This document shows, piece after piece, positions 20,193 to 37,769 of a DNA stretch of 39,909 nucleotides. Both the position numbers and the translations under genes were made by a program. Location: positions 1 to 39,909 of the forward strand of contig RFGB01000212.1 of the NCBI GenBank assembly GCA_003697125.1, written 5' to 3'. Position 1 is the stretch's first letter, and each line of letters starts with the position of its first letter. A model generated the notes under the pieces. It had not been told where the DNA came from and searched no databases. It saw only the letters and a list, made by a program, of their open reading frames with translations. Source of the stretch: Alphaproteobacteria bacterium. Its GTDB lineage: Bacteria > Pseudomonadota > Alphaproteobacteria > Rhodobacterales > Rhodobacteraceae.

Positions 20193-22965
20193 AGCCCAGC
20201 CAGGGCGGAAAGAGCAGCATCTGCGTGATCCGGATCGGTTCGACCGGCGCGGCGAAGGCCGGCCCGCGCATCAGCGCGCAGCCCAGGTCACGCAGGATCG
20301 CCGCCTGCTCCAGCGTCTCAACCCCCTCGGCCGCGACCGGGATGTCCAGCGCCGCGCCCAGCTCGGCCAGCGTCTCGACCAGGCTCAGCGAGGTCTCGAG
20401 GCGGTTGAGGGGGGCGATGAGGCCGGGGTCGAGGCACAGCCGGTCCGGCCTCAGCCGGATCAACGCCGACAGCGGCGCACAGGCCGCGCCGAAGCCCGCC
20501 AGCTCGACAATGGCTCCGGCCTCGCGCAGAGCTTCCACGGCCCAGCGCAGCGTCTCGTCGGGCATCCCGGCGCCGATGTCGCGCAGCGAAACGACCAGCC
20601 CGCCCTCGGCGTGAAGCCCGATCAGCTGGTCGGCGAAGTCCGGGTCGAGCAGCCGGGCGGCGGCCAGGGCGATCCCGATCCGGGGTGCGGGCCCGCCGGC
20701 AGCCCGCCAGCGCCGCGCCCGTGCCCTGGCATCATTGATCAGCATCGCGTCCAGCCGCCGGCCGAGCGGGGGATCGATCCCCGCGGGCAGGGCGGGCGCC
20801 GGGGCCGGCACCGATCCGTGCGGATCGCGCACCGACAGCACCGCCATCACCTCGCGGATGCGAAGCGTGGCGGCATCGACCACCGGCTGATACAGCACGC
20901 CGACCTCGCCCGCCGCCAGCGCCCGCTCCACCGCGGCGTTCCAGCGCCGCGCAGCGGCGTGATCCGCGGCCATCGGCGGGGCGAAACGCACCGGTCGGCC
21001 GCCGGCGATGGTGCGCGAACGGTGCAGCGCCGCACCGGCCTCGTGCAGCAGCGCAGGCGCATCCGCGCCGCTGGCGCGGGCGATGCCGACCGCGACCGGG
21101 CCGGCCTCTCGGCACAGGCGGGCAGCCTCCTGCATCTGCGCCGCACGCACCCCGAGCGCGTTGTCGTCGGTGCCCTGGATGCAGGCCAGCGCGAAGCGTC
21201 CGGGACCCAGCCGGGCAGGAATGTCGCCCTGGCGCGACAGCCCCGCCAGCGCGCGGGCGAAAGCCTGATCGGCCTCCGGGCTGGCCTCGGGCAGATCGAT
21301 GCGCAACAGCGCCACCGCGCGACGCGGGGCCGCGGCCAGCGCCGCCTCGAGCCCGGCGCGGTCGACCAGCGCCGCCTCCGCCGCCTGCGCATCCGGGCGC
21401 GCCGGCGGCGCAAGGATCAGCCGCTCGGCCTCGTCCAGCGCGGCCAGCAGAATCCGCGCGCGCGCCTCGGTCTCGGCCGGCCAGTTGCGCGCATGGTCGA
21501 TGATGTCGTCCTGCCACAGGCGCATCGTGTCCCGCGCCGATCCGGCCCCGGCCGCGGCACCGGCGCGGGGCGGCGGGGCCTGCATGGCTGCCCCGCTGTT
21601 CGGGCCGTCGCGGCGCGCTGCGCGCAGCGCGATCAGCCCGGGCCCGCTGCGCAGCTCGCCGATCCCGACCAGGCCGGCCGCGGCGGGCAGCAGTTCCGCG
21701 GCCCGGTCGGGCCAGTGGCCGATCGTCCGGTTGGTGACGAAGGCGCCGCCCTCGGCCGCCGCCAGCCGGCCGGCCACGCGCTCGGCCAGTGTCGCGGCGG
21801 TGGCGCGATCCGGCCCCGGGCCGATCAGCCACAGGCCCCGCCGGCCGCGAAAGACCAGGCTGTCGCATGCCGCCGCGGCAAGGATCTCGCGCTCTCGCCC
21901 GGCCAGGAACCCTGCGAAGTCGCCGGGCGGGGCGCCGGCCGCCGCCTCCACCAGCTTCGCGGCCCGGCGGGTGGTCTCAAGCCGGGCCGCCTCGCGGTTG
22001 CGGTCCTCGGCCCGGGCGATGCCGGCGGCCAGAATGTCGGCCAGGGCCCGGGCCATGGCACGCCTTGCCGGGTCGCAGATGCGCGGGCCCGCGTGATCGT
22101 GCAGCGCGACGAAGCCCCACAGACGGTTGTTGACCACCAGCGCAAGGCTGAGACTGGCGCGCACGCCCATGCCGCGCAGAAACGCCCTGTGTCCCGGGGC
22201 GAGGCCGCGATACACGCTTCCCGACAGGTCCAGCGCCGCGGGCGCGCCCCCCCCGGCCGCGACATGCAGCGCGACATCCTCGCCCGCGGAGTCGACCACC
22301 ATGCGCAGCCTCTCCTCGAGGAAGCGCTGCCGGGAGGGCGTCGGGATCTCCGCGCCCGGAAAGAACAGCCCCGTCCGGCGCGCCCCGTCATCGGATCCCG
22401 AATCGGCCAGCACCTGCGCATTCTGGTCGGCTTCCAGCGCACACAGCATCGCCCGGCCATAACCGGTCAGACGCAGGAAGCCCTGCGCGATCTCGGCGCC
22501 CCGCGCGGCGACCGCCTCATGCGTCGCGCCGGTCAGACGGCGGGCGATCCGGCCCAGCGTGGCGCTTTCGGCGGCAAAGGCCAGCCCGGCGGCCTGGATC
22601 GCCGCGGGATCGGGGGCGGGCTCGATTTCCAGCCCCACCAGCGCCCCGACCCGCAGCGGATTGGCCCAGACCGTCCGGCCCGAGGGCAGCGTCAGCGGCC
22701 CCGCCGCTGCCGCCAGGCTGCCGCCGTGCAGCGCGCGTTCCAGCGCGCGGGTGCCGCGCACGCCCAGCAGGCGGTCGGCCTCGCGCCCCAAAAGCCGCGC
22801 GGCCGGCGCACCGAACAGTTCCGACAGATTGTCGCTGGCCACGCGCAGACGCAGATCGTCGCTGCCGAACAGCAGCAGGATCGCGCCCTGCTGGACCGAG
22901 CCCGGACGCAGCGAAGGCAGCGCCTCAGGCGTGGCGGCAGACGCCGCGTGAAGTGGAGTGGTCAT
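20191..22965 (-). CDS. Phytochrome-like sensor with degenerate GGDEF and EAL domains, no bilin cysteine
   Basis: 924 aa. PAS-GAF-PHY core: PGSVQQGAILLLF (21-33) aligns with the PGxIQPHG of bacteriophytochromes. GAF residues 203-208 read PGAEIP for PASDIP. His259 (HRAFLRGMGVRAS) and His289 (WGFVALHDH) match the conserved histidines. The biliverdin Cys position eight residues before PG is Pro13; residues 1-174 contain no Cys, and the plant/cyanobacterial GAF Cys position is Gly258. The output half carries LGPGRFAL where RxGGDEFA is expected, and an EAL-like domain in which EALLRW is MAVLSV, DDFG is lost, but VAAEGVET is kept. So it probably neither makes nor cleaves c-di-GMP. ATG 22965 was chosen over a far-upstream TTG. 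Convergent with the Rid gene; 66 bases downstream of the isochorismatase-like gene. Confidence 0.82.
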   Translation of the reverse strand: MTTPLHAASAATPEALPSLRPGSVQQGAILLLFGSDDLRLRVASDNLSELFGAPAARLLGREADRLLGVRGTRALERALHGGSLAAAAGPLTLPSGRTVWANPLRVGALVGLEIEPAPDPAAIQAAGLAFAAESATLGRIARRLTGATHEAVAARGAEIAQGFLRLTGYGRAMLCALEADQNAQVLADSGSDDGARRTGLFFPGAEIPTPSRQRFLEERLRMVVDSAGEDVALHVAAGGGAPAALDLSGSVYRGLAPGHRAFLRGMGVRASLSLALVVNNRLWGFVALHDHAGPRICDPARRAMARALADILAAGIARAEDRNREAARLETTRRAAKLVEAAAGAPPGDFAGFLAGREREILAAAACDSLVFRGRRGLWLIGPGPDRATAATLAERVAGRLAAAEGGAFVTNRTIGHWPDRAAELLPAAAGLVGIGELRSGPGLIALRAARRDGPNSGAAMQAPPPRAGAAAGAGSARDTMRLWQDDIIDHARNWPAETEARARILLAALDEAERLILAPPARPDAQAAEAALVDRAGLEAALAAAPRRAVALLRIDLPEASPEADQAFARALAGLSRQGDIPARLGPGRFALACIQGTDDNALGVRAAQMQEAARLCREAGPVAVGIARASGADAPALLHEAGAALHRSRTIAGGRPVRFAPPMAADHAAARRWNAAVERALAAGEVGVLYQPVVDAATLRIREVMAVLSVRDPHGSVPAPAPALPAGIDPPLGRRLDAMLINDARARARRWRAAGGPAPRIGIALAAARLLDPDFADQLIGLHAEGGLVVSLRDIGAGMPDETLRWAVEALREAGAIVELAGFGAACAPLSALIRLRPDRLCLDPGLIAPLNRLETSLSLVETLAELGAALDIPVAAEGVETLEQAAILRDLGCALMRGPAFAAPVEPIRITQMLLFPPWLG

Positions 22966-30502: not shown

Positions 30503-32374
30503 TCAGCCGCTGCGCGCCGGGCTGCGGGCCAGGATCACCCGCGGGTCGGCGTCGTCATAGAGCGCCGCGACCAGATCGGCCCTGTTGCGCAGGATGTTGC
30601 GCTGGTTCAGCGATCCCTTGTCGGTGATCTCGCCCCGCTCGGGTTCGGGCGGGCTGTCGAGCAGGATCGCGCGGGCGACGCGGCTGGCCGAACCCGTCGC
30701 CGCCGCGGCATGGGCGGCCAGCCTTTCGGCCAGCGCCCGGCGCACCGCGGGATGGGCAAGGACGGCGGCGTCGTCCAGCGATCCGGAATCCCCGGATCCG
30801 ATCAGCGCCCGCAGCGCGGCGATGTCGGGCAGCATCAGCGCGCCGATCTCGGCCCGTCCCTCGCCCGCCAGCACCGCATCGCGCACCAGCCCGCCCATCT
30901 CGTTGACCAGCCGGCCGCGCAGCGGCCCCACCGCGACGAAGGTGCCGGTCACCAGCTTGAAGTTCTCGGCCAGCCTTCCGTCGAAGAAGAAGCCGGCCTC
31001 GGGCCGCCCCGGCACCGCAAAGCGGATCGCGTCGCCCAGCCGGTAGAATCCCTCCTCGTCGAAGGCCTGGGCGGTCAGCGCGGGATTGCGCCAGTAGCCC
31101 GGCGTGACCGAGGGGCTCTTGATGCGGCATTCCAGCTTGTCGCCCACCGGAACCAGCTTCAGATGCACCCCCTGCGCGGGGATCCCGACATTGTCGGGGC
31201 GCTCCTCCTCGACCATCCCGCACAGCGCGAAGGGGCCGGTCTCGGTCGCGCCCAGCGAGGATGAGCGCAGGACCCGTTCGCCCACCGCACGTTCGGACAG
31301 CGCCGCCAGCCTGTCCCAGCAATGGCGCGACATCGGCGCCCCGGCATACATCAGGTATTGCAGGCGGCTGAAGAAGTTGCGCGCAAGCGCCGCGTCCTCC
31401 TCCATCGCCCGGACCAGAAGTTCATGCCCGGCGGGGACATTGAAATACCATGTCGGCGCCACCTCGCGCAGGTTGCGCAAGGTGGTCCCGATCGCCTCGG
31501 GCGTGGGCTTGCCCGCGTCGATGTGATAGCTGCCGCCGTTGAACAGCGACAGGTAGAACACCTTGGTGCCGGCCGCGACGTGGTTCCACGGCGCCCAGTC
31601 CACGATCACGGGGGGCGTGTCGCGCAGGAAGGCATAGGCATCCAGCACCATCGCCTGGTTCGAGGCGATGTTGCCGTGGGTCTGGATCACCGCCTTCGGG
31701 CTGCCGGTGGTCCCCGACGTGAACAGGAACTTGGCGATGGTGTCGGGGCCGACGGCCTGATGGGCGCGGTCCACCGCCTCGTCGGGCCGCGTGGAGACGA
31801 GATCGTCAAGGGCAATGCCCCGCCCGGGCAGCGGGTTGGTCCGGCTGACCACCGGCAGGTCGGGGGGGAAGACCGCCTCGATCGCGGCGCGGAAGCGCGC
31901 GCCGTCCTCGGCATAGATCAGGCCGGGGGTCAGCTGGCGCGCCACCTCGCGCAGCTTGACCGGATCCGCCGCGGCCAGCGAATAGGCGGGCGCGATGGCC
32001 GCCGAGGGTATGCCCACATGCTGGGCGGCCAGGGCCATCAGCGCATGGCCGATGCTGTTGCCCGACAGGATCGCCAGCGGCCGTTCGGCCGAAAGGCCCA
32101 TGTTCAGCAGCGCCGCGGCGATGGCACGCACCTGCGCCAGCGCCTCGGCATAGGTCACGCGCTGCCATTCCCCATCCCCCGCGGGTCCGGCGCGCTCGGC
32201 CATCCAGACCCGTTCCGGCGCCTCCCGCGCCCAGCGGATCAGCGGATCGGTGACGCTGCGCTCCCACGGGCCCAGCGGATCTTCCCGCCAGACATGGATG
32301 CTGCCGTCGGGGCGGGTATCCATCGCCAGCTTCGGGTTCCAGGTGCGGATCCTCCTGAGCGGTGCCTTGGCCAT
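30503..32374 (-). CDS. Feruloyl-CoA synthase-like acyl-CoA ligase
   Basis: 623 aa, the length usual for feruloyl-CoA synthases of this class. ANL adenylation motif FLFTSGTTGSPKAVIQTHGNI at 216-236. The subfamily shows VIVDWAPWNHVAAGTKVFYLSLFNGGSYHIDAGKP as segments, then SSLGATETGPF, and FFFDGRLAENFKLVTGTFVAVGPLRG in place of the usual hinge. The C-terminal Lys lies in RGEITDKGSLNQRNIL. It activates hydroxycinnamates (ferulate, p-coumarate, caffeate) with ATP and CoA. It is divergent from a crotonase-MarR-amidohydrolase-TRAP set, as in other hydroxycinnamate loci. GGAGGGAAGG precedes ATG 32374. The true substrate may be another aryl-propenoate. Confidence 0.85.
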   Translation of the reverse strand: MAKAPLRRIRTWNPKLAMDTRPDGSIHVWREDPLGPWERSVTDPLIRWAREAPERVWMAERAGPAGDGEWQRVTYAEALAQVRAIAAALLNMGLSAERPLAILSGNSIGHALMALAAQHVGIPSAAIAPAYSLAAADPVKLREVARQLTPGLIYAEDGARFRAAIEAVFPPDLPVVSRTNPLPGRGIALDDLVSTRPDEAVDRAHQAVGPDTIAKFLFTSGTTGSPKAVIQTHGNIASNQAMVLDAYAFLRDTPPVIVDWAPWNHVAAGTKVFYLSLFNGGSYHIDAGKPTPEAIGTTLRNLREVAPTWYFNVPAGHELLVRAMEEDAALARNFFSRLQYLMYAGAPMSRHCWDRLAALSERAVGERVLRSSSLGATETGPFALCGMVEEERPDNVGIPAQGVHLKLVPVGDKLECRIKSPSVTPGYWRNPALTAQAFDEEGFYRLGDAIRFAVPGRPEAGFFFDGRLAENFKLVTGTFVAVGPLRGRLVNEMGGLVRDAVLAGEGRAEIGALMLPDIAALRALIGSGDSGSLDDAAVLAHPAVRRALAERLAAHAAAATGSASRVARAILLDSPPEPERGEITDKGSLNQRNILRNRADLVAALYDDADPRVILARSPARSG

Positions 32375-32427
32375 TCCTTCCCTCCGATAAGCGGCCGGCA
32401 CGGACCGGCGCCTCCCGGCCCGCCATC

Positions 32428-32467
32428 TTGACGCGGGCCGGCAAATTTGTCTACTTGGAAACAAATT
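32428..32467. promoter_or_regulatory. Divergent promoter/operator with AT-rich 24-bp palindrome
   Basis: The 24-bp imperfect palindrome at 32444-32467 (arms AATTTGT / ACAAATT exact, 9 of 12 pairs matching overall) is a striking AT-rich island in the feruloyl-CoA synthase/crotonase gap. On the + strand TTGACG (32428-32433) and TCTACT (32450-32455) form a likely promoter with 16-bp spacing; the -10 lies inside the palindrome. A MarR-type operator is the natural reading, since a MarR gene is third in the locus. Confidence 0.6.
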
Positions 32468-32564
32468 CGCCCCACCCCGCGGCTCCGGCCCGAAGGGCGG
32501 GGCCGGGCGGGTTGCGGCGCGCGGTGATGCCGCGCGGCGAAGGCGCGGCGGAAGGGGTGTGGTG

Positions 32565-33368
32565 ATGACGGCCGGCACTGGCGCGGACGGGCTTCTCAGC
32601 TGGGAAATGCGCGATGGCGTCGCCCTGATCGGGCTGAACCGGCCGGCCAAGCGCAACGCGATCAGCGATGCGGTGATCGCCGCGATCGACGAGGCGGTCG
32701 CCCGGGCCGAGGCGGAGGCGAGAGCCGGGGTGATCTTCGGCCATGGCGGGAATTTCTCGGCCGGGCTGGACCTTGCCGAGCAGGCCGAGCGCTCGGCGCT
32801 GGACGATCTGGAGAATTCGCGCCGGTGGGGGCGGGCCTTCGACCGCATCCAGCGCGGTCGCCTGCCCTGGTTCGCCGCGCTGCAGGGCGCGGTGATCGGG
32901 GGCGGGCTGGAACTCGCCGCGGCGGTGCATGTGCGGGTGGCCGACGAGACCGCCTATTTCGCCCTGCCCGAGGGGCAGCGCGGGATCTACACCGGCGGCG
33001 GGGCCTCGGTGCGCGTTGCCCGGCTGATGGGGGCCCATCGCATGGCCGACATGATGCTGACCGGCCGCGTCGTCACCGCCGCCGAGGCCGAGGCCTGGGG
33101 CGTCGTGCAGTATCGCGTGCCGGCGGGCGAGGCGCTGGCGCGGGCCGAGGCGCTGGCCCGGAAGGCCGCCTCCAACGCGCCGCTGTCGAATTTCGCCATC
33201 ATCCAGGCCCTGCCGCGCATCCAGGACATGAGCCATGAGGACGGCCTGTTCGCCGAAAGGCTGATGGCGGCCCTGACCATGACCACGCCCGAGGCCAGGG
33301 CCAACCTGCGCGCCTTCTTGGAGAAGCGGGCGGGCCGGCTGGCGGTGCCGGACGAGGCCGATGACTAG
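32565..33368 (+). CDS. Crotonase-family enoyl-CoA hydratase (hydroxycinnamoyl-CoA hydratase/lyase candidate)
   Basis: 267 aa. Crotonase domain with HGGNFSAGLDLAE near residues 64-76, FAALQGAVIGGGLELAAAVHVRVADETAYFALPEGQRGIYTGGGASVRVARLMG in the centre (read as short motifs), and the Glu of LPEGQRGIY, the usual acid/base position. It probably hydrates feruloyl- or coumaroyl-CoA and may cleave it to the benzaldehyde and acetyl-CoA. No aldehyde dehydrogenase is nearby, so a beta-oxidative route or an aldehyde dehydrogenase elsewhere is possible. ATG 32565 was selected over two upstream in-frame GTGs because GGAAGGGG lies 7 nt before it. The stop overlaps the MarR start by 8 bp. Confidence 0.85.
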   Translation: MTAGTGADGLLSWEMRDGVALIGLNRPAKRNAISDAVIAAIDEAVARAEAEARAGVIFGHGGNFSAGLDLAEQAERSALDDLENSRRWGRAFDRIQRGRLPWFAALQGAVIGGGLELAAAVHVRVADETAYFALPEGQRGIYTGGGASVRVARLMGAHRMADMMLTGRVVTAAEAEAWGVVQYRVPAGEALARAEALARKAASNAPLSNFAIIQALPRIQDMSHEDGLFAERLMAALTMTTPEARANLRAFLEKRAGRLAVPDEADD

Positions 33369-33885
33369 GCCGGGGGGATCGCGGGTCACGGTCCTGCCCG
33401 CGCCCGGGCGGGAGCCGCAGGCCCCCCCGGCGGCCGATCCGTCCTCGCTGGCGCTGGGCGCGCTGGAGGATTCGCTGGGCTTCCTTCTGCGCATCGCCCA
33501 GCTGCAGGCATTCGAACGCTTCTATGCCGCCGTGGCGGGGCATGATCTGCGCGCCGGCGCCTTCACCATCCTGTGGGTGATCGGGCTGAACCCGGGCGTG
33601 CGCCAGGGCGTGCTGGCCGAAAGGCTGATGATCAAGCGCGCGCACATGGCCAAGCTGATCCGCGCGCTGGAACTGGCCGGCCTGGTCGCGCGCACCCCCT
33701 CGCGCGAGGATCGCCGCGCCGTCGAGCTGCGCCTGACCCCGGCCGGGCGCCGGCATGTCGAGCTGCGCGCCGCGGCCTTCTTCGCGCCCGACAGCGCACC
33801 GCCGACGAGTCTCAGCGCCGCCGAGACCCGCACGCTGATCGGGCTGTTGCGAAAGCTGACCGGAATCGGCGAGGAGGCGCCATGA
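33361..33885 (+). CDS. MarR family regulator of the hydroxycinnamate-type locus
   Basis: 174 aa. After a disordered Pro-rich N-terminus of about 28 residues comes a winged-helix domain: FTILWVIGLNPGVRQGVLAERLMIKRAHMAKLIRALELAGLVAR and the wing SREDRRAVELRLTPAGRRH. MarR proteins such as FerR and CouR repress hydroxycinnamate genes and are released by the aryl-CoA. The palindrome at 32444-32467 is the obvious candidate site, an inference from position. Overlaps the crotonase gene by 8 bp and the amidohydrolase gene by 4 bp. Confidence 0.87.
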   Translation: MTRPGGSRVTVLPAPGREPQAPPAADPSSLALGALEDSLGFLLRIAQLQAFERFYAAVAGHDLRAGAFTILWVIGLNPGVRQGVLAERLMIKRAHMAKLIRALELAGLVARTPSREDRRAVELRLTPAGRRHVELRAAAFFAPDSAPPTSLSAAETRTLIGLLRKLTGIGEEAP

Positions 33886-34757
33886 ATGTCGATGATCTGA
33901 TCGCCATCGACGTCCATACCCATGCCGAGGAGCCTTGCAAGGGCCCCCGCGATGACGGCTATCACGAGTTCCAGGCCGGCATGGCCCGCTATTTCCGCAA
34001 TCCGGCCGGCGCCCAGGGCATGCTGCCCACGGTGGAACAGACGGCCGCCTATTACCGGGAACGGCGCATCGGCTGCGTGATCTTCCCCGTCGATGCCGAA
34101 CGCGAGACCGGCTTCCGGCGCTATTCCAACGAGGAAGTCGCCCGCATCGCCGCCGAGAACGCCGACATCATGATCCCCTTCGCCTCGATCGACCCGGCCA
34201 AGGGGCGTGCCGGCGCGCGCGAGGCCCGCCGGCTGATCGAGAGCTTCGGCGTGCGCGGCTTCAAGTTCCACCCGACCATGCAGGGTTTCTGGCCCAATGA
34301 CCGCATGGCCTGGCCGCTCTACGAGGTCATCGCCGAGGCGGGCGCCATCGCGCTGTTCCACACCGGCCAGACCGGGGTCGGCGCCGGCATGCGCGGCGGC
34401 ATGGGCATGCGTCTGAAGTATTCAAACCCCATGGCCATCGACGATGTCGCGGTGGACTTCCCCGACATGAAGATCATCCTCGCCCACCCCTCCTTCCCCT
34501 GGCAGGAGGAGGCGCTGAGCGTCGCAACCCACAAGCCCAATGTCTGGATCGACCTGTCGGGGTGGTCGCCGAAATACTTCCCGCCGATCCTGATCCAGTA
34601 CTGCAACACGATCCTGAAGCACCGGATGCTGTTCGGATCGGACTGGCCGGCGATCACCCCGGACCGATGGCTTGCGGATTTCGCGAAGATCGGGATCCGC
34701 GACGAGGTCCGGCCCCTGATCCTGAAGGAGAATGCGCGGGCCCTGCTGGGCCTGTGA
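33882..34757 (+). CDS. Amidohydrolase family 2 (ACMSD-like) protein
   Basis: 291 aa TIM-barrel metalloenzyme. HxH motif His12/His14 in IDVHTHAEE, RGFKFHPTMQGFWPND, LFHTGQTG, KIILAHPSFPWQEEAL, and the C-terminal metal Asp in LFGSDWPAITPDRWL. Family 2 members include aromatic decarboxylases (gamma-resorcylate, 5-carboxyvanillate, ACMSD) and lactone or C-C hydrolases. Its position between the MarR and TRAP genes suggests an accessory aromatic acid role, not determined here. The ATG overlaps the MarR stop (ATGA) and GGAGGCG precedes it. Confidence 0.85.
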   Translation: MNVDDLIAIDVHTHAEEPCKGPRDDGYHEFQAGMARYFRNPAGAQGMLPTVEQTAAYYRERRIGCVIFPVDAERETGFRRYSNEEVARIAAENADIMIPFASIDPAKGRAGAREARRLIESFGVRGFKFHPTMQGFWPNDRMAWPLYEVIAEAGAIALFHTGQTGVGAGMRGGMGMRLKYSNPMAIDDVAVDFPDMKIILAHPSFPWQEEALSVATHKPNVWIDLSGWSPKYFPPILIQYCNTILKHRMLFGSDWPAITPDRWLADFAKIGIRDEVRPLILKENARALLGL

Positions 34758-34776
34758 CGGAGCAGCGGAGGAAACC

Positions 34777-35889
34777 ATGAGACTGATTCATGCGGTTGCG
34801 GCCGGGGCCCTGGCACTGACCAGCCTGCCCGCCGCGGCGGAGGAGCTGGTCTACGGCTCCTGGGTGCCCGCCGCCGACTGGCTGACCGCCAAGGCCCTGC
34901 CCGAGTATTTCGCCCGCGTCGAGAAGGACGCGCCCGGCGAGGTGACATGGACCTGGATCGCCGGCGGACAGCTCGCCGGCGGGCGCGAGACCCCGACCGC
35001 CATCCAGGACGGGGTGATGGATGCGGGGCTGGTGATCCCGACCTATGTGCCGAACCTCCTGCCCTCGCTGGCGATCATGTATGGCATCGCCATCGAGGGC
35101 AACGACCCCGTCGCCGCCGCCGGCGCCTCGATGGAGGTGATGCTGCTGCGCTGCCCGTCCTGCCTGGCCGAGGCGCGGGCGATCAACCAGATCCCGCTGG
35201 CCGGCCATGCCGGCGCACCCTATGTGCTGATGTGCCGCGAACCGGTGCGCAGCGTCGCCGATCTGAAGGGCAGGCGCATCCGTGCCTCGGGCGCCGCGCT
35301 CGACATGCTGAACATGGCCGGCGCGGCCACGGTCTCCGCCAGCCTGGTCGAGGCGGTGAGCCTGCTGCAGCGCGGCGGGCTCGACTGCGTGGCGGGCGTG
35401 GGCGAATGGCTGCGCACCTTCGGCTAAGGGGACTTCGCCAAATATGTCACCGACTTCTCGTTCGGCGTGTCCTCGCCCGCGATCAACCTGTCGATCAACC
35501 GCGACCGCTGGCTGGCCATGTCCGACACCGAGGAGCGCGCCCATCTGCGCCATGCCGGATATCTGGTCGCCGAGATGACCATCGGCAGCTTCATCATCCG
35601 CAACCAGCAGGCGGTCGACGAACAGGTGCGCGACAATGGCGTGCAGATCATCCGGGGCGATGCCAGCTTTGACGCGCTGATGAAGCGCTACAAGGCGGCC
35701 GAGATGGACACCGCGATTGCCAAGGGCCGCGAATTCGGCGTCGAGGGGGTCGAGGCGATGGTGCGCGACTATCTCGACACCGCCGAGAAGTGGCGCGGCC
35801 TTTCGGCCGAGATCGGGACCGACATCGAGAAGTTCGCCGAAGTGCTGTGGCGCGAGGTCTATTCCAGGATCGACCCGAACGCCCTCTGA
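34777..35889 (+). pseudogene. TRAP transporter substrate-binding protein (DctP type), interrupted by an in-frame TAA
   Basis: The reading frame encodes a 370-codon DctP-type periplasmic receptor with signal peptide MRLIHAVAAGALALTSLPAAA. Codon 217 is TAA (35425-35427), between GEWLRTFG and GDFAKYVTDFSFG; the same frame then continues without interruption to 35889 (VLWREVYSRIDPNAL). The expected residue here is probably Tyr (FGYGDFAKY), so one change of TAC or TAT to TAA would explain it. The encoded 216-residue fragment would lack the C-terminal lobe. GGAGGAAACC is a good ribosome binding site. The membrane genes downstream are intact. A sequencing error or tolerated readthrough are alternatives. 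Confidence 0.85.
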
Positions 35890-35907
35890 TCCGGCGAGGC
35901 TGCCCCC

Positions 35908-36450
35908 ATGGCCGCGCCGATGACCCGCGCGACCGGCCTGTGCCGCCGGATTGCCGACGGCCTGTTCGCCCTGGCCCTTCTGGCCGGGGCGGCAATGATG
36001 ACGCATGTCACCGTCGATGTGCTGGCGCGCAGCCTCCTGGCCCGGCCGCTGCCCGGCACCAACGAGGTGGTCGCCGCCTATTACATGATCGCGGTGGCCT
36101 TCCTGCCCTGGGCCCATCTGGCGCTGGCCGACCGGCACATCACCGTCGACATGTTCGTTGCCCGCCTGGGGCGGCGCTGGCGGGCGGGGCTGGACCTGTT
36201 CGCGCGGCTGGTGACCATCCTCTACACGGCGGTGTTCACCTGGCAGAGCTGGATCGGCGCGCTGCGCCGCACCGCGCGCGGCGAGGTTCTTGAGATCCCC
36301 ACCGGCTTCCTGCCCGCATGGCCGGGGCGATGGCTGCTGCCGGTGGCGGGCGCGGCGATGCTGGTGGCGCTGGTGCTGCGGCTGGTCGCCGATCTCGGCA
36401 CCGCATCCCGCGACGGCGGCGATGGTGACGTGTCTGGGGGGCGCGGGTGA
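35908..36450 (+). CDS. TRAP transporter small permease (DctQ type)
   Basis: 180 aa with four hydrophobic helices (LFALALLAGAAMMTHVTVDVLAR, EVVAAYYMIAVAFLPWAHLALA, the VTILYTAVFTWQSWIGAL segment, and the C-terminal LLPVAGAAMLVALVLRLVADL). HITVDMFVARL is the typical DctQ motif following helix 2. Forms the inner-membrane complex with DctM. 18 bases after the interrupted dctP; its stop overlaps the DctM start. Confidence 0.88.
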   Translation: MAAPMTRATGLCRRIADGLFALALLAGAAMMTHVTVDVLARSLLARPLPGTNEVVAAYYMIAVAFLPWAHLALADRHITVDMFVARLGRRWRAGLDLFARLVTILYTAVFTWQSWIGALRRTARGEVLEIPTGFLPAWPGRWLLPVAGAAMLVALVLRLVADLGTASRDGGDGDVSGGRG

Positions 36451-37769
36451 TGTCGGGGCTCGAGCTGGGTCTGGTCAGCCTTGCCGCCGTGCTGGCGCTC
36501 ATCGCGCTGCGGGTGCCGATCGGGGTGGCGCTGGCCGGGGTCAGCTTCCTGGGCTTCTGGCATCTGCGCAACCTGAATGTCGCCCTGTCGATGGTGCGAG
36601 AGGTGCCGCACGGCTTCGCGTCCAGCTGGGACCTTTCGGCCATTCCCATGTTCCTGCTGATGGGCGCGATCGCGAATGCCAGCGGCATCGCTGCGGCGCT
36701 GTTCTCGGCCGCGCGGATCTGGCTGGCGGGGCTGCCCGGCGGGCTGGCGGTGGCGGCCAATCTCGCCTGCGCGGGCTTCGCGGCGGCCTGCGGATCCTCG
36801 GTTGCCGCCGCCGCGGCCATGGCGAGACTTGCCGTGCCCGAGATGCTGCGCGCGGGCTACGAGAAGGGGCTGGCCGCGGGGGTGGTGGCCTCGGCCGGAA
36901 CCATCGCCGCGCTGATCCCCCCCTCGATCCTTCTGGTCCTGTTCGGGGTGTTCGCCGAGGTCTCGATCGTCGACCTTCTGATCGGCGGGGTGGTGCCCGG
37001 GCTGATCACCGCGGCGGTCTACACGGCGATGATCCTGCTGCGCTGCCGGCTGGACCGGTCGCTGGCACCGCGTCCCGACCCTGCCGCGATCGCCGCGCTG
37101 GGCGCTGCGCGCTGGCGTGCGCTGGCCGAGGTCTGGCCGCTGGTGCTGCTGATCGGCGGGATCATCGGGGGGCTGTATTCCGGGATGGTCAGCCCCACCG
37201 AGGCCGGGGCGGCGGGGGCCTTCCTCGCGCTGGTCATCGCGGTCGCGCAGCGGCGGATGACCATGGGGCGCATGGTCGAGGCGCTCGCCGAGGGCATGGG
37301 CACCACCGCCCAGATCTTCTTCGTCGGGATGGGTGCGGTGATGTTCACCCGCTTCCTGTCGCTGACCGGAACATCGGCGGCGCTGGCCGATCTGGTGGCG
37401 CCGCTCGCGCTGGATCCGGTGCTGATCGTGATCGCGATGTCGGTGGTCTATCTGGTGCTGGGCATGTTCCTCGACCCCATCGGCATCATGCTGATCACGC
37501 TGCCGGTGTTCCTGCCGCTGCTGAAGACGCTGCAGATGGATCTGGTCTGGTTCGGCGTGCTGGTGGTCAAGTATATCGAGATCGGCATGCTGACCCCGCC
37601 GCTGGGCTTCAACCTATTCGTCGTCAAGTCCGTGGTCGGCGGCGAGATCTCCCTTGAACGCATCTTCCGCGGCGTCGGCTGGTTCCTTGTCTGCGACCTG
37701 GTCGTCGTGGCGCTGATGATCCTGTTTCCGGATCTGGTCACCTTCCTGCCCGGGCTGATGCGGGGCTGA
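36450..37769 (+). CDS. TRAP transporter large permease (DctM type)
   Basis: 439 aa, the usual length, about 12-13 transmembrane helices. Characteristic DctM segments: RVPIGVALAGVSFLGFWHLRN, SSWDLSAIPMFLLMGAIANASGI, AAACGSSVAAAAAMARLAVPEML, GTIAALIPPSILLVLFG, SPTEAGAAGAF, GMFLDPIGIMLITLPVFLP and LGFNLFVVKSVVGG. Na+-driven secondary transporter of carboxylates; the partner receptor gene is broken, so import may not function unless another receptor supplies it. ATG 36450 was selected (TGATG with dctQ) over the preceding GTG. Confidence 0.93.
   Translation: MSGLELGLVSLAAVLALIALRVPIGVALAGVSFLGFWHLRNLNVALSMVREVPHGFASSWDLSAIPMFLLMGAIANASGIAAALFSAARIWLAGLPGGLAVAANLACAGFAAACGSSVAAAAAMARLAVPEMLRAGYEKGLAAGVVASAGTIAALIPPSILLVLFGVFAEVSIVDLLIGGVVPGLITAAVYTAMILLRCRLDRSLAPRPDPAAIAALGAARWRALAEVWPLVLLIGGIIGGLYSGMVSPTEAGAAGAFLALVIAVAQRRMTMGRMVEALAEGMGTTAQIFFVGMGAVMFTRFLSLTGTSAALADLVAPLALDPVLIVIAMSVVYLVLGMFLDPIGIMLITLPVFLPLLKTLQMDLVWFGVLVVKYIEIGMLTPPLGFNLFVVKSVVGGEISLERIFRGVGWFLVCDLVVVALMILFPDLVTFLPGLMRG

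Follow-up and report, generated by a model that had tools for sequence, protein, structure and literature searches.

A TRAP receptor gene interrupted by an in-frame TAA beside intact permease genes: a probable recent nonsense mutation

The TRAP systems closest to the locus described here consist of a receptor, DctP (PF03480, solute-binding family 7), and the permease subunits DctQ and DctM, encoded in the order P-Q-M. PMC3610893 describes a ligand-carboxylate Arg of TRAP receptors. The same paper covers the TarP of R. palustris (RPA1782), the receptor of one of the aromatic-acid TarPQM systems, and the proteins TarP_Csal and TarP_Sse represent these systems by solved structures. A further familiar case is the ordinary recent pseudogene, in which one nonsense codon interrupts a gene.

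The window, by which we mean the whole analysed stretch of 39,909 nucleotides, coincides with the whole of contig C18; the draft assembly measures 3.5 Mb and has 315 contigs. It encodes a locus that resembles DctP with DctQM in profile match, in gene order and in predicted fold, the last being that of a read-through model only. It differs from a typical dctP in that the full-length coding sequence, as needed for a working receptor gene, is broken by a TAA at codon 217, in its weak Pfam score, and in belonging to a branch with four invariant Cys. From ordinary recent pseudogenes with one nonsense codon it does not differ, unless the stop is a sequence error: there is one stop where relatives have a sense codon, the remainder is normal and the neighbouring genes are intact. 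We suggest that a conserved Tyr codon has recently mutated to a stop, truncating DctP after 216 of 370 residues, and we give this reading a probability of about 0.6. The features of the locus are listed in Table 1.

Table 1. Features of the interrupted dctP gene and of the genes around it, in window coordinates.
Feature	Position	Strand	Observation
AMP-binding (acyl-CoA-ligase-like) gene, start provisional	30503..32848	-	PF00501, 148.5 bits
Enoyl-CoA hydratase family gene	32559..33368	+	PF00378; NF006013 above cut-off
MarR-type regulator	33361..33885	+	PF01047, 44.6 bits
Amidohydrolase-2 family gene, directly upstream of dctP	33882..34757	+	PF04909, 176.4 bits
dctP, truncated frame	34777..35427	+	216 residues, stops at TAA; PF03480 (DctP), 30.2 bits for this half alone (gathering cut-off 23.4)
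In-frame TAA, codon 217 from ATG 34777	35425..35427	+	Tyr in 40/42 relatives, Phe in 2/42
dctP, C-terminal half past the TAA	35428..35889	+	153 residues and TGA (35887-35889)
dctQ, small permease, intact	35908..36450	+	PF04290, 78.7 bits, profile 1-130 of 132
dctM, large permease, intact	36447..37769	+	PF06808, 280.2 bits, profile 2-412 of 413; listed frame opens with GTG, next ATG at 36450

The dctP frame is preceded by a GGAGG (by eye) and begins with what resembles a signal peptide, followed by a TRAP receptor's N-terminal portion. Taken across both halves the PF03480 score rises to 37.4 bits. The first-pass annotation had reported a TAA at codon 217 with 154 more codons behind it, and both statements agree with the sequence, the latter when the terminal TGA is counted. 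Its view that both permease genes are intact is borne out by profile matches that run almost end to end. No further lesions were found in dctP between 34777 and 35889, and a search from 34700 to 35950 gave no promoter-like or terminator-like sites.

The stretch past the TAA is real protein and not a chance open frame. Uninterrupted relatives match it as part of one continuous protein, the gene of G021 at 52% identity and that of Sagittula stellata at 47%, and its codon usage and GC3 are normal; together with the fold, this is what the earlier description of a normal DctP C-terminal half would lead one to expect. In codon score, the gene's own frame is the highest for each half (0.612 for the C-terminal and 0.454 for the N-terminal half), as it is for the neighbouring genes. 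Both remaining forward frames score negative. One reverse frame is also positive, at lower values (0.462 and 0.332), a pattern that the neighbouring genes share.

Relatives were sought in a collection of genome contigs, where the N-terminal half alone as query gave none and an alignment as query gave 39 loci. With two Sagittula plasmid genes and a paralogue on contig C115 of the same genome these make up an alignment of 42 relatives, none of which has a stop at the position of codon 217. In a more distant set of 13, with partly overlapping genes, the residue is Tyr in eight, Leu in four and Phe in one, again with no stop. A Tyr codon as ancestor and a single base change, as first proposed, fit both sets; it should be noted that the four Leu count against strict conservation of Tyr. 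Columns conserved at 90% or more are kept by the window's DctP in 42 of 44 cases in the N-terminal half and in 11 of 12 in the C-terminal half. The ratio of C-terminal to N-terminal identity to 32 outgroups is 0.71, below the 0.75 to 0.85 of seven of the eight near relatives. This could mean slightly relaxed constraint on the C-terminal half, although the nearest relative, with 0.72, is equally low. Nothing past the TAA clearly points to decay; with normal codon usage and normal conserved residues there, any decay would be recent. The earlier claim of a recent event without other lesions thus stands for dctP itself; for the genome it does not, as other lesions are present there.

A structure was predicted for the read-through DctP, with Tyr put in place of the stop, from an alignment that included 23 of the 39 loci. 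The model (mean pLDDT 93, pTM 0.90) shows a complete TRAP receptor fold and superposes on 4nap_B with TM scores of 0.75 / 0.89. The 50 listed fold matches are all receptors of the TRAP type or of related kinds, and the top 25 include the TarP structures and several entries titled aromatic-acid-specific or solved with aromatic acids, e.g. 5i5p, 7nsw and 7nr2. The identity to TarP in the fold alignments is only 17-19%; with regard to hydroxycinnamate binding, which marks the TarP receptors, the likeness is one of fold only. The stop comes behind the helix 211-214, and the modelled elements past residue 216 comprise strands at 223-225 and at 235-241, a long helix (250-287) and everything later. 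Arg169, located before the stop, is invariant in the 24 aligned sequences (the window's and those of the 23 loci); it probably corresponds to the ligand-carboxylate Arg of TRAP receptors (PMC3610893). C126, C129, C153 and C204 are likewise invariant in the 24 sequences, and 4n6d, the best-matching solved sequence, lacks an equivalent of the CxxC pair. The four Cys may be joined in disulfides or serve as metal ligands.

Downstream of dctP, the gene order of the window is that of most relatives: DctQ and DctM follow the receptor gene in 35 of the 39 related loci, at L059 after a second receptor gene. Within the sequence examined, the exceptions are L067, with DctQ only, and L056, L057 and L079, with neither. 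In Sagittula a single permease pair lies between two receptor genes, and in G021 two permease pairs surround one receptor, both of them unusual TRAP layouts (L022 and L033). L049 and L059 also have two receptor genes beside one permease pair. The CoA-type enzymes adjoining the window's dctP are a further likeness to the TarPQM systems. To judge by the fold neighbours and the nearby genes, an aromatic acid or some other organic acid may be the substrate.

We propose the following course of events. A nonsense change at Tyr codon 217 would leave a DctP of 216 residues, retaining the apparent signal peptide and Arg169 and lacking every modelled element past residue 216. Such a protein would be exported and then misfold or be degraded; a stable, working receptor of 216 residues is unlikely. 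Deprived of its receptor, the DctQM of the operon would fail to take up its substrate, perhaps an organic acid, aromatic or otherwise, on which the adjoining amidohydrolase and CoA enzymes act. That loss of the receptor would silence import through DctQM, as the first-pass annotation stated, is a sound expectation. Rescue of DctQM by another receptor is possible; the nearest DctP paralogue of the genome, on C115, lies beside a DctQ and a DctM of its own, and nothing points to it as the substitute.

The good conservation of the remainder and its position in frame would also suit functional readthrough of the stop, or a two-piece receptor made from both halves. We consider this very improbable: TAA is not a codon of the Sec or Pyl type, none of the 42 relatives shares the stop, the RNA downstream of it folds no better than shuffled sequences (z -0.55), and a restarted piece would be without a signal peptide. 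Readthrough, put forward earlier as an alternative, thus finds no supporting feature, and a readthrough signal was rejected on the ordinary folding of that RNA. Possible restarts at the in-frame GTG 35467, ATG 35518 and ATG 35575 were rejected, as no clear ribosome site was seen by eye. The ends of 21 chosen long plus-strand frames are 14 TGA, seven TAG and no TAA; several of these frames are not real genes, and the count speaks neither for nor against TAA as a sense codon. Strain polymorphism, another alternative of the first-pass annotation, would mean that intact and broken alleles of dctP coexist in the population and that the assembly shows the broken one; a lone lesion that looks fresh would suit it. 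This would be most natural for a metagenome-derived assembly, and we hold it to be decidedly unlikely. The one genus mate examined (84% complete) gave no receptor match at E 1e-60; its amidohydrolase, with 72.5% identity, is encoded on a contig of 7,396 bases, where dctP, dctQ and dctM had no match.

The main rival, also among the alternatives of the first-pass annotation, is a sequencing or consensus error in the draft, by which dctP would really be intact; we find it somewhat doubtful, and the evidence bearing on it is mixed. The assembly consists of 315 contigs, the gene is otherwise well kept, and isolated lesions occur elsewhere, namely on C38, C104, C289, C125 and C227; such other stops and frame changes raise the chance of error and count against a mutation. 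In brief, the dctP on C38 (L041, G000:C38) has an in-frame TAG at record position 22095, where six of eight relatives' loci have Glu (L084, out of register, and L089, unreadable, were dropped). The dctM on C104 has an in-frame TAG (L090:1838 = G000:C104:11337), and the dctM on C289 (L091, G000:C289:2919-4135) lies in two overlapping pieces in different frames. An ATP-grasp-like gene on C125 has an in-frame TAG (L093:1402), and so does an ABC sugar-type receptor gene on C227 (L104:7697), which seems to change frame too. Stops were found in two of 35 DctP matches of the genome (the window's dctP and that on C38) and in one of 51 DctM matches (C104). On the other side, none of the 125 ABC_tran and 84 BPD_transp_1 matches of the same genome (209 in total) contains a stop, which argues that errors are not rife, a contrast that is suggestive only since both domains are short and the count is blind to frame changes. 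The ABC_tran count comes from scoring 150 of the 182 candidates of a first look. A same-frame scan of 412,142 bases in 23 stretches including the window, mostly transporter-bearing contigs, gave 18 hits; four of them, the window's dctP included, were judged other than ordinary gene junctions, and the stop on C38 was missed owing to the length limit of the scan. Among the DctP matches listed for 40 other genomes there is at least one more stop-bearing gene (G015), so that lesions of this kind are not confined to the genome of the window.

A fresh-looking, single nonsense lesion in a TRAP receptor gene is a familiar and ordinary kind of event. Among the many TRAP genes of this genome, stops interrupt dctP twice and dctM once, and one further dctM changes frame, against no stop in the 209 ABC domain matches. 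That the organism is in the course of shedding several uptake systems together, by fresh lesions, seems quite unlikely to us. The two stops with a known ancestral residue, Tyr in the window's dctP and Glu on C38, could fit G:C to T:A changes of the kind expected from an oxidative mutator, two cases being too few to test this. The other lesions are a reason for caution in metabolic prediction and about the quality of the assembly. If the nonsense mutation is real, this TRAP system is disabled at its receptor while the permeases persist, and annotation from the permease genes alone would overstate the uptake range of the bacterium.
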